Shown here: positions 53,847-60,372 of the stretch, one piece after another
How the letters are laid out: the number at the start of each line of letters is the position of its first letter
How positions within the stretch are numbered: position 1 is the stretch's first letter
Assembly: GCA_016934535.1 (NCBI GenBank)
Contig: JAFGSQ010000010.1
Coordinates: forward strand, 16,564-80,563
Direction: 5' to 3'
Length of the DNA: 64,000 nt
From: a candidate division WOR-3 bacterium
GTDB taxonomy: Bacteria > SDB-A
Notes under the pieces: generated by a model
Database searches by the model: none
What the model was told of the DNA's origin: nothing
The model's input: only the letters and a program-made list of their open reading frames with translations
Made by a program: the position numbers and the translations under genes

Positions 53847-55496
53847 TCAATTTTCCTTTTTTTCTTTTCTTTTTTTATTGTCGTCCTTTTCAGAATTTTC
53901 GCTCCTGTACAAAAGCTTTCCCTCGGAAGAGATTATCCTCATTTTCCCGTCGTAACCGAGCAGAACAAAATTTCCGTCTTCGGACATCGCAATCACTTCT
54001 TCACGTCCCAACACGCCGTTTTTTAAAACTGAAAGCAGATGATGGCCGGCCTTTTTGCCGTCAGGTGAAATTTTTATTACAGAATATACATCGTTCTGGT
54101 CCGATCCCAGAACATACGCGTTCCCCTCTTTATCGGCGTACGCCCTGGAATAAGTATACCTGAAATCGAGATTTATTAAATATATCTTTTTTCCCCCTCT
54201 GGAGTATTTCATTAGTTTTTCGTAGTTAAGAATATAATAATTGCCGTCATAACCGACAGAAAGAACAATTTCTCTGTCCCTGAAATAAACCGGCTTGTCC
54301 TCAAGATCTTCCAAATATCCGGCAATTATTGAACTGTTTTCTTTCTCCGAAGTCTCTTTATCTTCTTTCCATGTTTTGACGGCGTTTCCGTCAAAATCGA
54401 ATCTTTTCAGTTCATAATAATCGTTATTTTCGGAATCTCTTTTTTCTCTGTTTAAGAGAACCAAAAATGTGTCGTCCGTATCCGCGCAGAGAGTCCACGC
54501 GTTTTTCATTGAAAAAAAATCTTTTTTTTCCGAGGGTTGTCTCCCTTTGTTTCCACCCAATTTATCCTCCGTTTCTCCCGTCTTTTGAGAGAGAAACAAA
54601 AGAGCATGCTTTTCTCTGCTCCAAATCATGAGCCTGTTTTTGCTGTCAATTGCCAGTTTAGGATTTCCTTCGGACGAATCCGGATTATATTGCAGATCTG
54701 ACAAAACCCATTTTGTCGAAAGGTTTTTATCCAGCGCCGCCAAAGTCAGATTCGAGTCTTCGTTTTCCGAAGCGATGTAAATGTCGCCTTTTCTGTCGAC
54801 GACGGAGTCCCATATTTCCCCTTTCCATTCGAAAGGTTTCGCTTTTTCGTCGAAGATTATATACCATCTCGAAATAGTCTCGACGGGGTGTATTCTTCTC
54901 CAAAGGTCGTCGGGAAGATATACCGAAGCTTTGCAGAAAGAGCATTTTATCATTCTCTCTTTTCCATCTACATCGAGAAATCCTCCGCATTTCGGACATG
55001 CAAAAGCAACCGGTTCAGGCGCGTTGATCACGGTTTCATCCTCGGCTTTTTTCCCCGAAGTAATAAGTCCGAAATCTTCGAAAACAAGGTAAAGAATCCC
55101 CGGAAAAGCTTTTTTATATTTATCCGGCGCTATTCTGAAAGAATATTTTTTCCCGGTATCCGGATTGACGGCAAAACCTTTTTCGGCGAATTCACTCAGT
55201 CTTTCAAGATTGAGCGGTTTTTTATCGTCAGGGAATTTTGGCTTTTGCTTTCCGTACATGATCTGGAAATTATAACCGCCGAAAATTGAAGCGTTATTCC
55301 CCTCCCCTTCCTTGAACCCCGGGACTTCATTGATAGCGTCTCCAATAATGCTTTTCCAGTCGGAAACGCTGAAACACGTCTTTTCACCGCATGACTGGCA
55401 GACAATTTCGTCAGTCAAAGCGTTTAAGTGAAGGGTGTCGTCGCATTTTCTGCATTTGGTTTTAGCCTCGATAGCGATGCTCAATAATCCTGTCAT
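53847..55496 (-). CDS. Zinc-ribbon protein with propeller-like repeats, paralogue A
   Basis: 549 residues, not recognised. Two zinc ribbons: C-x2-C...C-x2-C near residues 15-40 (CRKC, CQSC) and FACPKCGG...KCSFC at about 165-195. From about 210 to 530, beta-rich units with repeating patterns (DRKGDIYIASEN, DSKNRLMIWS, DKEGNAYVLGSD, SEDGNFVLLGYDGKMRI) suggest a six- to seven-bladed propeller. A charged Lys-rich tail ends the protein. No signal peptide, so cytoplasmic. Second of two tandem paralogues, 62 nt downstream of the other. Confidence 0.72.
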   Translation of the reverse strand: MTGLLSIAIEAKTKCRKCDDTLHLNALTDEIVCQSCGEKTCFSVSDWKSIIGDAINEVPGFKEGEGNNASIFGGYNFQIMYGKQKPKFPDDKKPLNLERLSEFAEKGFAVNPDTGKKYSFRIAPDKYKKAFPGILYLVFEDFGLITSGKKAEDETVINAPEPVAFACPKCGGFLDVDGKERMIKCSFCKASVYLPDDLWRRIHPVETISRWYIIFDEKAKPFEWKGEIWDSVVDRKGDIYIASENEDSNLTLAALDKNLSTKWVLSDLQYNPDSSEGNPKLAIDSKNRLMIWSREKHALLFLSQKTGETEDKLGGNKGRQPSEKKDFFSMKNAWTLCADTDDTFLVLLNREKRDSENNDYYELKRFDFDGNAVKTWKEDKETSEKENSSIIAGYLEDLEDKPVYFRDREIVLSVGYDGNYYILNYEKLMKYSRGGKKIYLINLDFRYTYSRAYADKEGNAYVLGSDQNDVYSVIKISPDGKKAGHHLLSVLKNGVLGREEVIAMSEDGNFVLLGYDGKMRIISSEGKLLYRSENSEKDDNKKRKEKKEN

Positions 55497-55558
55497 GTCT
55501 CACCCCTCTTGAATATTTTTGATTATTACATCAGCATCAGGTCGTAATAACGACTCTT

Positions 55559-57235
55559 TCAATCCTCTTTTCTTCTTTTTTCTTCAAGCGTTCTTTCTTC
55601 GTCTTCTTTGGCCTCTTCGCTCCTGTAGACTTGTTTTCCGTTGTTCGCAACAATTCTCATTCTTCCTGAATATCCGGCAAGGTAAAATGTCCCGTCTTCG
55701 GAAAGGGCGAGAATTTCTTCACTGCAGACGACGCCATCGTCTAAAACAGAAAGAAGATGACGCGTCATCTGTTTTCCGTCGGGAGAAATTTTTAGCACGT
55801 ACCTTTTGTCATTCCCGTCAGAACAAAGCACGTAAGCGTTGCCGTCCTTGTCTCCGTAAGCCCTCGAATACGTATAACTGCAGTCGAGCTTGACAAAATA
55901 CTGTTTTTTTCCCTCCCTGGAATATTTGATTAATTTTTCATGGCATAAAAAGTAATAAACACAGTCGTAACCGAGTGATATTTTAATATCCCTGTCCCTG
56001 AATCTCTTGGGCTTGTCTTTAAGACTTTCAAAATACTGAGCCCCTCTTGTTCCGGAGAAAAAACTTTTTATTTTCCCAAAAATATTTTTTTCCGTCTCGC
56101 CTTTTCTCCAAACATCCACTGCATTCCCGTCGTAGTCGTATCTCATAAGTTCGTAATAACAATTTTCGTCCGTGTCTTTTTTATCTCTGTCGAGCAGGAC
56201 GACAAATGTATCATCGTTATCGGCAAAGAGGCATATTGCGTTTTTCATTGAAAAGCGTTCATTTCCTTTCCCGGGCTGTTTCCCCTTGCGGCCGCCCAAC
56301 ATATCTTCGGTTTCGCCTGTCAGGGTTGAAAGAAACAGCAGTGTGTTTTTATCTCCGCTCCACAGCATGAGCCTGCCGCGGCCGTCTATAGCGAGTCTGG
56401 TGTCGCCGTTTGAAGTCTCCGGATAATATTCGAGATCCTTCCTTGTCCATCTTCTTGTACGGTCTTTGTCAAGTGAAACCAACTCCATTTTTGAACGGTC
56501 CGTTTCCACGGCCAAATAAATATTGTTTTCTCCGTCGAGGACCATGTCCCATGCGTCTGAATCCCAGGTAAAAGGTCTTTCTCTTTCGTTCATTATTATA
56601 AACCATCTCGTTACTGTCTCGACTGGATGAATTCTCTTCCAGAGATCGTCTGGAAGATAGACAGAAGCATTGCAAAAAGAACATTTGATCATCCTGTCCT
56701 TACCGTCTACATCGAGAAAACCTCCGCATTTAGGACAGGCAAAAGCCACCGGATCATGAGCTTTTACGGCCGATTCTTGCGAGGATTCTTTATCGCCTGA
56801 AATCAGGCCGAAATCTTCCATCGCCAGATACAAAGCGCCGGGAAAGTCTTTTTCATATATTACTGGTACTTTTCTGAAAGAATATTTCTTTCCTGTGTCA
56901 GGGTCTTCGACAAAACCTTTCTCAGAATATTCTTCGCTTTTCAGGATGTCTATATTCTTTTTGCTGTCGGGAAATCTCGGGATCTGTTTTCCGTACATAA
57001 TTTGATAATTAATACCGCCCATCACTGTCGAATTTGTTCCCTCTCCTTCTTCATAATTCGGGGCTTCTTTTATAGGATCTTCCAAAATGTCATTCCACAG
57101 TTGTAAATTCAGGTTTAACTCTTCACCGCACGACGGGCAGAGAATTTTCTCAGTCAAAGCGTTAATGTGGATTGTTCCATCACATTTCTGGCAATTTGTC
57201 TTCAGTTCGATAGCAACACTTATTAATTCCGGCAT
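55559..57235 (-). CDS. Zinc-ribbon protein with propeller-like repeats, paralogue B
   Basis: 558 residues and collinear with the downstream paralogue throughout. It has the N-terminal ribbon (CQKC, CPSC), an intervening acidic region with MYGKQIPRFPD, the second ribbon (FACPKCGG, KCSFC), and the repeat region (DGENNIYLAVET, DGRGRLMLWSGD, DKDGNAYVLCSD, SEDGTFYLAGYSGRMRI). The Lys/Glu-rich tail is shared. ATG has GAGGAG upstream. Similarity over the whole length shows an in-situ duplication followed by substantial divergence. Function unknown; the propeller reads like a sensor or scaffold. Confidence 0.72.
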   Translation of the reverse strand: MPELISVAIELKTNCQKCDGTIHINALTEKILCPSCGEELNLNLQLWNDILEDPIKEAPNYEEGEGTNSTVMGGINYQIMYGKQIPRFPDSKKNIDILKSEEYSEKGFVEDPDTGKKYSFRKVPVIYEKDFPGALYLAMEDFGLISGDKESSQESAVKAHDPVAFACPKCGGFLDVDGKDRMIKCSFCNASVYLPDDLWKRIHPVETVTRWFIIMNERERPFTWDSDAWDMVLDGENNIYLAVETDRSKMELVSLDKDRTRRWTRKDLEYYPETSNGDTRLAIDGRGRLMLWSGDKNTLLFLSTLTGETEDMLGGRKGKQPGKGNERFSMKNAICLFADNDDTFVVLLDRDKKDTDENCYYELMRYDYDGNAVDVWRKGETEKNIFGKIKSFFSGTRGAQYFESLKDKPKRFRDRDIKISLGYDCVYYFLCHEKLIKYSREGKKQYFVKLDCSYTYSRAYGDKDGNAYVLCSDGNDKRYVLKISPDGKQMTRHLLSVLDDGVVCSEEILALSEDGTFYLAGYSGRMRIVANNGKQVYRSEEAKEDEERTLEEKRRKED

Positions 57236-58147: not shown

Positions 58148-59440
58148 TCAGTATTTCAATATCAGTTTATTCCGACCTCCGACCTCAACGAAATACTGAC
58201 CTCTTGCAACTTTTACTCCGCTGAAATCATTTCCGGACCATCGCACAACGGTTGGAACTTCAGTGTATTTGATTGTATTTATTGTTCTTCCGGTCACGTC
58301 GTATATCATCAATTCTCCGGGTACTTCAATATAGCCGGACAACACTATATCGACATAATCGAGAAATGGATTCGGATAAACCTGAAAAACGTTCGGGTCA
58401 GGTCCTATAGAAGGAGTTTCCTCGACTGCGCCGGCGTTAACTCCGAAATAAGTCATCACATTCTGAAGATACTGTCTTTTCGTAGATATTCCGGTTCCGT
58501 CCACCAGGCTTCCGATTTCGAACACTGCACCGATCGTCTTGTACGTTCCGGCGTCGTAAGCGACGCATATATTGTCTCCATAGGTTCCTTCTTTGAAGAG
58601 AACCTGTGCCGCTCCGAGAGAATTTACAATATCTCCAGCGTAATCTCCCAGACTCTGCACGAAATTCATACCCGCCATCATGGTTCCGTTCTGACCCAAA
58701 ACCGTATGAATTATAGATCCGTAATCCGGATTTATGCCGAAAACCGGGCTGAAATCGTAGGCGTGATACATGTAAGGACCTGAACACCACGGGCTGTTTC
58801 CTTCCAAGTAAACTCGCCCTCCCTGGTTTATGTAGTTCAGAATCCTGGTTTTTTCAAGGCAGAATGAATCGATAAAAAACGTGTAGGGTCTGAATCCTGT
58901 GCATACAAAAAGAGACCTGTAGTATTCCAGACCAATTCCCGGCATTTCAATGCCGTAATGGCCCAAGTAGCCCAAATCCGAGAGAATGGAGTCCATTAGC
59001 TGGCCGGATTCCGGAGTAGAATCCGGATTCCAGACCAGATAATCGTATTGACCGGTGATGACTGAAAACGAAAGAGTCTCGGAATATCCGGCGTGATCGC
59101 TGATCTCCATCGAAAGGTCTGAAACATGCCCCTGTGGAGTCGAAGGACTTGCCTGAACCCGAAAGACATCGCTTGAATTGCATACTGTCGCGTCGACGGG
59201 AAACGGGCCGAAGTCGAACGTTCCGTCTGTTACAAGCAGATATGGATCGATTGTGAAAAGAGTAGCCCAGATATGTAAAACACCGGCTCCGCCGATATTT
59301 TTCAAAAATACAGTTATTTCCGCCGGTTCTCCGGGATCCATTCTTCCGTTGTTGTTTCCCGCCGGATCTCCAATTTGAACTCTTTGAAGTGCGGTAAAAA
59401 TATCAGAACCGTTGTAGTTTATTGTAATGTTGTCAGCCAA
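58148..59440 (-). CDS. Secreted protein, 3' part after an in-frame TGA (T9SS-like C-terminus)
   Basis: 430 residues if started at TTG 59440, but no signal peptide is present and no SD is seen. The frame is continuous with the upstream ORF through a single TGA (59465-59467), eight sense codons before this TTG. It contains a CARDB-like beta domain (about 20-130; DPAGNNNGRMDPGEPAEITVFLKNIG), an unrecognised alpha/beta region, and a C-terminal T9SS type A domain (VYPNPFLDYV, MIYDVTGR, VARGQYFVEV). The sorting domain without an export signal argues that this is the second part of one protein. Confidence 0.75.
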   Translation of the reverse strand: MADNITINYNGSDIFTALQRVQIGDPAGNNNGRMDPGEPAEITVFLKNIGGAGVLHIWATLFTIDPYLLVTDGTFDFGPFPVDATVCNSSDVFRVQASPSTPQGHVSDLSMEISDHAGYSETLSFSVITGQYDYLVWNPDSTPESGQLMDSILSDLGYLGHYGIEMPGIGLEYYRSLFVCTGFRPYTFFIDSFCLEKTRILNYINQGGRVYLEGNSPWCSGPYMYHAYDFSPVFGINPDYGSIIHTVLGQNGTMMAGMNFVQSLGDYAGDIVNSLGAAQVLFKEGTYGDNICVAYDAGTYKTIGAVFEIGSLVDGTGISTKRQYLQNVMTYFGVNAGAVEETPSIGPDPNVFQVYPNPFLDYVDIVLSGYIEVPGELMIYDVTGRTINTIKYTEVPTVVRWSGNDFSGVKVARGQYFVEVGGRNKLILKY

Positions 59441-59450
59441 GACCTTGGCT
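59435..59450 (-). promoter_or_regulatory. SECIS-like hairpin 14 nt after the in-frame TGA
   Basis: On the minus strand AGCCA, loop AGGTCT, TGGCT form a 5-bp stem with a six-nt loop. Loop AGGTCT is the same hexamer as in the apical loop of the E. coli fdhF SECIS (recalled, not checked). Nineteen nt separate the TGA from the loop, comparable with the known bacterial spacing. A chance match within coding sequence is possible. Confidence 0.35.
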
Positions 59451-59464
59451 GTGACGGGTGATCC

Positions 59465-60082
59465 TCAACAATATCTGACAGTGTCCAGTAATACCAGCTT
59501 GATTTTGTCGACGGCGACAGGATTCACAGATGGAACGTTTATCAGCTCACTGTCAATACTAAAGGAAAAACTGTGCCAGTCTCCGTCCTGCACTTCAATG
59601 ACATCCATGTATGTGGTGTCTACCCATCTGCATCTTTCTGTCTTCCGGCATATTCTGGTCCTGCCGAGGAATGAATCGTACCGGTCCAGGTATTCAATGT
59701 CGAGGGCGGCTCCGGTCCACGCGCTGTATGATGCAAAAACGTCGAATTTAACGTCGGCGCTGAACGTCAGGTCAGTAGTTCTTATCGGGACGGTTTGATA
59801 AAGCATTGAATATCCGGACGAGGAATCCTTGACGACCTTGACCTCGTAGTCGGGATCCGGATCAAGTGCGGTTTCCCTCGTGAAATTCTGAAATCCTCCG
59901 CTTGCCGTCTGAATCCATCCCTGCTCCAAACCAGCTTCGAAGTCTCCGTTTTGGACAAGGTGCGCCGTCCCGTCGTCGTCACCTTTTTCAGTGTAGAATC
60001 CGGCATATGCCAAACGGTTTGAGAAAGACAACGTCGAGAGCAAAAGCAGGACAATTACATTCATCTTCTTCGATAAAATCAT
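59465..60082 (-). CDS. Secreted protein, 5' part ending at an in-frame TGA
   Basis: 205 residues before TGA. A signal peptide (about 7-27) is followed by a carbohydrate-binding-module-like jelly roll (NGDFEAGLEQGW, RTTDLTFSADVKFD, WHSFSFSIDSELI, VDKIKLVLLDTVRYC). The jelly roll is cut just before its last strand. That strand is found immediately after the TGA in the same frame (VTAKVLADNITIN). AAAGGAGGG precedes ATG 60082. It should be considered one gene with 58148-59440, either nonsense-mutated or recoded. Confidence 0.78.
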   Translation of the reverse strand: MILSKKMNVIVLLLLSTLSFSNRLAYAGFYTEKGDDDGTAHLVQNGDFEAGLEQGWIQTASGGFQNFTRETALDPDPDYEVKVVKDSSSGYSMLYQTVPIRTTDLTFSADVKFDVFASYSAWTGAALDIEYLDRYDSFLGRTRICRKTERCRWVDTTYMDVIEVQDGDWHSFSFSIDSELINVPSVNPVAVDKIKLVLLDTVRYC

Positions 60083-60372
60083 TTTTTCGCCCTCCTTTGA
60101 TTAATTTTTCAAAATCGTCACTCGTTGTTTCAAAAAGTGTCGTCAAATAATTCCTGACTCAGAAAAATCAAAATCGTTTGAATTCATTTTTTCGATCTTC
60201 TCATTATAGTTGGTTGGCTGTTTGCTTATTGAATTTGACAATCAAATATCACGATCTGTCAACACCGATTATAAAGATAAATGAACGGTCAATAATTCTG
60301 ATCTCTTTGTTTTCATAAATATTTTATTTTTTTTCAAATGTGTATAAAATAAATGTAAAACAGGGGGTTTAC
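60083..60372. other. Intergenic region between divergent genes
   Basis: 290 AT-rich bases between the secreted-protein gene (minus) and the ChlI-like gene (plus). Inverted TTGACA and TGTCAA elements at about 60235-60265 could serve as -35 boxes for each side or as an operator. No convincing matched -10 was found. No ORF, RNA gene or repeat seen. Confidence 0.4.

Follow-up and report, generated by a model that had tools for sequence, protein, structure and literature searches.

Does an in-frame TGA mark a selenocysteine codon, a lesion in an ordinary gene or the boundary between two genes? This question is raised by the reverse strand of the stretch of DNA analysed here (the window, 64,000 nucleotides from a candidate division WOR-3 bacterium), where a frame running from the ATG at 60082 to the TGA at 58148-58150 is open but for one further TGA at codon 206 (59467-59465). 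The original prediction described two ORFs (59465-60082 and 58148-59440) lying in one frame and separated only by this TGA and eight codons, up to a TTG at 59440, and these coordinates are correct. With the TGA read as U, the whole gene (58148..60082, reverse strand like all of its features below) encodes 644 residues with selenocysteine (Sec) at position 206, in the order signal peptide, Sec-containing jelly roll, Ig-like domain, ThuA/GATase-like domain and type IX secretion (T9SS) sorting domain. A Shine-Dalgarno-like AAAGGAGGG can be read directly off the sequence at 60090..60098, 7 nt 5' of the ATG.

Homologous genes and the conserved TGA

Homologues are 32-50% identical over the Sec domain. 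The full-length relatives found by a protein search each have exactly one internal TGA; they comprise two tandem paralogues on contig C11 of the window's own genome and single genes from a genus mate and a family mate. When conserved stretches outside the Sec site were scanned against 84,980 species genomes, 33 loci emerged, mostly from WOR-3/Stahlbacteria, with metagenome-assembled genomes (MAGs) that carry the labels Cloacimonadota, Latescibacterota, Eisenbacteria and Thermoanaerobaculales among the rest. Five more loci came from profile searches, which covered 386 and 385 genomes. Where the member genomes are named, they are MAGs. Three genes (L081, L084 and that of G002) end at contig ends before the site. 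Forty homologous genes span it, and 39 of them, in about 31 genomes, have TGA at the position aligned with 59465..59467 (motif RYC-U-GSP in the window). None of the 40 has Cys, Trp or Ser at this position, so far as the collections and search patterns reach, and for the 39 the choice between Trp, Cys and Sec that the original prediction had wished to see made by alignment falls on Sec. SelA scored above its cut-off in 27 of the 28 member genomes; the remaining one is a small MAG, in which the locus is cut before the site.

From the window alone, a TGG-to-TGA nonsense mutation or an assembly or sequencing error in an ordinary secreted protein could not be excluded, and RYCW had been considered plausible at this place. 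Because the same TGA recurs in so many genes and genomes from different assemblies, and Trp never does, neither mutation nor assembly error can explain it; the conserved hairpin and the Sec genes described below also speak against both. This explanation is ruled out by the homologues, and we leave it practically no weight. The same applies to a split gene, in which two proteins would be made, the second from the TTG at 59440. Two mechanical ORFs do exist, and a standard gene caller displays members of the family as split or truncated ORFs. However, the alignment with full-length homologues runs through the TGA in one frame and covers the entire gene, no start codon is conserved at the position of 59440, and the division would cut a domain ahead of its last strand. 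As had been proposed, this last jelly-roll strand (residues 210-223 in the model) falls 3' of the TGA. The homologues thus dispose of the split-gene reading as well, and its chance is negligible. We are highly confident that the Sec-containing protein family is genuine.

The sole exception among the 40 genes is a distant homologue (L083:1493-4513, same species as G162), which has neither Sec nor Cys at the site, though SelA is present in its genome. The otherwise invariant Trp122 is lost there too, and this gene may have lost the function of Sec secondarily. Another locus, L053 (LKUE01000393.1), comes from a MAG deposited as 'Desulfuromonas sp. SDB', which matches G003; since G003 is placed in one family with the genome of the window, this genus name is apparently mistaken.

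The hairpin and the selenocysteine machinery

The original prediction had noticed AGCCA-AGGTCT-TGGCT beginning 14 nt 3' of the TGA, and this position was confirmed. The SECIS hairpin CAGCCAA-GGTC-TTGGCTG (59434..59451) has a 7 bp stem and a GGTC loop (59441-59444) located 20 nt 3' of the UGA, with a folding energy of -10.7 kcal/mol. It satisfies the bSECIS model, which requires a 3-9 nt loop with G in the first two loop positions, a 4-16 bp stem, a loop 16-37 nt 3' of the UGA and a minimum free energy of -7.5 kcal/mol or lower (PMC13188914). The window contains 2,483 TGA trinucleotides, counting both strands, and a GGTC loop closed by a stem of at least 6 bp lies 16-37 nt 3' of only one of them, that at 59467-59465. 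The combination of TGA and hairpin in the window is not chance. On the other hand, the loose DNA pattern TGA-N9-22-AGGTCT was uninformative in four whole genomes, three of which gave about 1.5-2 times the reversed control and the fourth fewer than the control.

Common to the family is a 6-bp stem closing the GGTC loop. Over 27 distinct gap-free sites, all six pairs are 100% paired and four of them vary on both sides (e.g. GC, AU, CG and UA at one pair); double-sided changes fill 21 cells against 3.9 in shuffles, and slid versions of the structure are paired at 60% or less. Since the hairpin site is coding, synonymous codons were also redrawn as a control, with each gene's own usage in 2,000 draws. 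The five inner pairs were formed in 170 of 170 cases over 34 homologous sites, compared with 140 +/- 4 after redrawing (maximum 155). In the loop, Val is encoded by GTC at 33 of the 34 sites, against a background of 33%, and the amino acids track the stem: Lys-Val-Leu/Phe (AAG GTC TTN), Glu-Val-Ser (GAG GTC TCC) or Arg-Val-Leu (AGG GTC CTC). As far as such comparisons of sequences can tell, the hairpin is under selection as RNA and is a real SECIS.

The original prediction called for a search of the genome (2.23 Mb in 76 contigs) for selA, selB, selC and selD, and all of their products were found. SelA scored 421.7 bits, SelB 308.7 bits (cut-off 242), SelD 361 bits and the tRNA-Sec, with anticodon UCA and directly 5' of selA on contig C53, 49.7 bits (gathering score 47). 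The tRNA-Sec gene was missed by ARAGORN; it is split over the end of contig C71, which holds its 5' bases, and the start of C53, and these contig ends overlap by about 79 nt. The SelD gene has an in-frame TGA of its own, in the motif GUAAKIG, and SelD is a known selenoprotein family (PMC13188914, Table 1).

With the hairpin 14-30 nt 3' of it as the signal, the UGA of codon 206 would be read as selenocysteine by SelB and the Sec-tRNA. The proposal of Sec insertion thus gained support from the machinery in the genome, from homologues with TGA rather than Trp, and from the compensatory changes in the hairpin. The TGA of the window is almost certainly read as selenocysteine, on the strength of sequences and without protein-level evidence; the insertion is well supported in this way and has not been shown biochemically.

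The selenocysteine domain and its surroundings

A signal peptide had been placed in the first ORF and a T9SS-like domain in the second, and both placements held. The N-terminus (about residues 1-27, 60002..60082) is inferred to be signal peptide-like from a hydrophobic stretch, modelled as a low-confidence helix. The T9SS type A sorting domain (residues 566-643, 58154..58387) matches TIGR04183 only marginally in the window protein (23.3 bits, cut-off 23), and two homologues reach 32.7 and 25.0 bits. The SprA translocon is present in the genome (427.8 bits, with its neighbours in frame). The protein in this respect resembles T9SS type A cargoes, none of which, to our knowledge, has been described as a selenoprotein.

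AlphaFold2 modelled the whole protein with a mean pLDDT of 82, and residues 35-227 alone with a pLDDT of 93.4 and a pTM of 0.89. Judging from this model and from VIA-align, the Sec domain (residues 38-226, 59405..59971) is a CBM-like jelly-roll beta-sandwich, for which there are no binding data. It superimposes on a porphyran CBM (8xmz) with Z 13.8 and 2.5 A over 134 residues and on a CBM16 (2zey) with Z 12.9 and 3.0 A over 139 residues. CBM16, CBM4 and porphyran-binding CBMs (2zey, 2y6j, 8xmz) share its fold at Z 11-14; however, they are only 14-18% identical to it, lack the Sec/CU motif and give no family match above cut-off. In Pfam and NCBIfam, the domain exceeded the curated cut-off of no model, the commonest weak match being CBM_4_9 (best E 0.003, in five of 29 members, below cut-off), and a sequence profile of it found nothing significant in the PDB (best E 0.22). 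It is followed by an Ig-like beta domain (residues 230-343, 59054..59395), inferred from the secondary structure of the model, and by a ThuA or class-I-GATase-like alpha/beta domain (residues 345-552, 58427..59050), which is similar to GH42 domains, ThuA-like proteins and GATases (VIA-align Z 13-18). In other members, such as L054 and L057, the parts 3' of the Sec domain differ, so this domain appears to be modular.

In the model, the loop joining the last two strands holds Sec206, at one end of the beta-sandwich. The antiparallel strand order brings loops 117-122, 147-159 and 203-210 to one end, and the invariant Trp122 and the conserved Cys151-x-Trp153 are inferred to be near Sec, from strand order only and without distances. 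The Cys-Sec pair of the original prediction stands in part: Cys205 (59468..59470) lies immediately 5' of Sec, and a Cys at this place (CUG motif) is common to most members, but it is not universal. Of the eight members without it (alignment A3), a Cys precedes Trp122 in six, and L079 has one at U-3 and L062 one at U+4. This distribution hints that Sec may need a Cys partner; it is only suggestive, since the sequences are related. None of the Cys residues is found in every member, so the family lacks a fixed resolving Cys. Animal thioredoxin reductase ends in GCUG, with adjacent Cys and Sec followed by Gly, like the CUG motif here, a resemblance that is no more than a lead. However, no homology of this enzyme to the window protein was seen, and the fold and the position of the motif differ.

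The UGA itself might be the functional element, a regulatory switch yielding a 205-residue product at low selenium and the full-length surface protein only with selenium. Stopping at UGA under low selenium follows from the general working of Sec recoding, and the sequence 3' of the UGA encodes the sorting domain as well as the final strand of the jelly roll. Nevertheless, a truncated jelly roll should not fold, and two observations suggest that the side chain of Sec is important as such: its surroundings (Trp122, Cys151) are conserved, and L083 has lost Sec and Trp122 together. We therefore regard a switch as improbable.

A probable surface selenoprotein family and its possible role

We conclude that these genes form a family of secreted selenoproteins that has not been described so far, with a fold not previously listed for selenoproteins. 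The most complete catalogue that we found contains 119 prokaryotic selenoprotein families in its Table 1, and the jelly-roll CUG family is absent from it (PMC13188914). The catalogued families share with ours the in-frame UGA, the bSECIS and SelA/B/C/D, and the CU motif occurs in SaoL, HgcA and KCU-star, but neither a T9SS sorting domain nor a CBM-like jelly roll is described for any of them. Literature searches on selenoproteins with WOR-3, Stahlbacteria, Omp28, T9SS or CBM turned up no account of the family. Moreover, according to PMC12013277 a homologue with Cys seems to exist for every known selenoprotein, although this is usual for selenoproteins and does not define them, and the present family, as judged from its sequences and within what was searched, is an exception to this rule. 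Homology filters demanding Cys partners would systematically miss such families. The selenoproteome gains a widespread family with a fold and an inferred cell location not listed for Sec before, and a natural case for asking what selenium does beyond sulfur.

Other selenoproteins are encoded near the gene in several loci. UxxC thioredoxin-like lipoproteins (e.g. FFTDDMUPFCASAEQ) occur in seven of them, being downstream of the CUG gene at L060:7855-8691, L061:7998-8723, L062:6857-7573, L064:8011-8856 and L074:8016-8753, and also found at L063 and L069. Omp28-family (PF11551) proteins with UxxC likewise accompany it in seven loci, as secreted proteins with SECIS-like hairpins in five of these (L060:4680-5774, L062:3665-4735, L063:8038-9126, L064:1749-3276 and L074:1740-3276) and also in L073 and L081, some genomes having several such paralogues. 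These Omp28-like neighbours were considered as new selenoproteins, and this was rejected: NCBIfam has a related model, NF045500, and they are therefore variants of the known Omp28-related selenoprotein, though their score against it (55.9 bits) is under the cut-off of 200. The Omp28-related selenoprotein (NF045500, 'GOS_C') and Omp28 itself are extracytoplasmic and occur in the same organisms, but they carry UxxC in another domain and leave the jelly-roll Sec domain unmatched; the window protein, with its CUG in the jelly roll, does not match NF045500. The window gene has no UxxC neighbour, and none was seen in ten of the 16 loci with long flanks. Three Omp28-like genes with one in-frame TGA each are located elsewhere in the window's own genome (C32:3113-4039 (L115), C38:9639-10628 and C49:37239-38246), so the extracytoplasmic selenoproteome of this genome may number at least six.

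By inference, the product is exported via its signal peptide, and the sorting domain and SprA suggest that the type IX system probably then carries it to the cell surface. There Sec would most likely pair with a Cys close by (usually Cys205, in other members the Cys before Trp122) and act as a redox or nucleophilic centre, and it may exchange electrons with the nearby extracytoplasmic Omp28-like and thioredoxin-like UxxC selenoproteins of several genomes. The occurrence of the latter in several loci is support, and no proof, for a redox role at the surface. On the other hand, CBM-like folds are usually binders and not oxidoreductases. A surface redox function, which is inferred only, is quite possible, and we hold it tentatively, a little short of belief.

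Alternatively, the inserted Sec may serve in a binding protein as a metal or metalloid ligand or as a selective nucleophile, outside thiol/disulfide redox chemistry. The CBM-type fold would suit such a role, as would the invariant Trp122 beside the site (by strand order), the lack of an invariant Cys partner and the failure to find a Cys version, which suggests a task impossible for sulfur. Yet the neighbouring thioredoxin-like UxxC selenoproteins point to redox, and CU is present in most members. We consider this alternative possible and doubt it somewhat more than the surface redox function. The boldest form of the redox proposal is a Sec-only family in which a surface jelly roll of the sugar-binding type was turned into a selenium-dependent catalyst and which, with the Omp28-like UxxC proteins, forms an extracellular selenium electron chain in WOR-3 and its relatives; this is rather unlikely, and we offer it as speculation.

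Adjoining the selenoprotein gene in the window are two paralogous genes (53847-57235, reverse strand), whose products of 549 and 558 residues have zinc-ribbon-like CxxC pairs. At L050/L053, too, the homologue adjoins a gene whose product carries a similar CxxC ribbon at its N-terminus.
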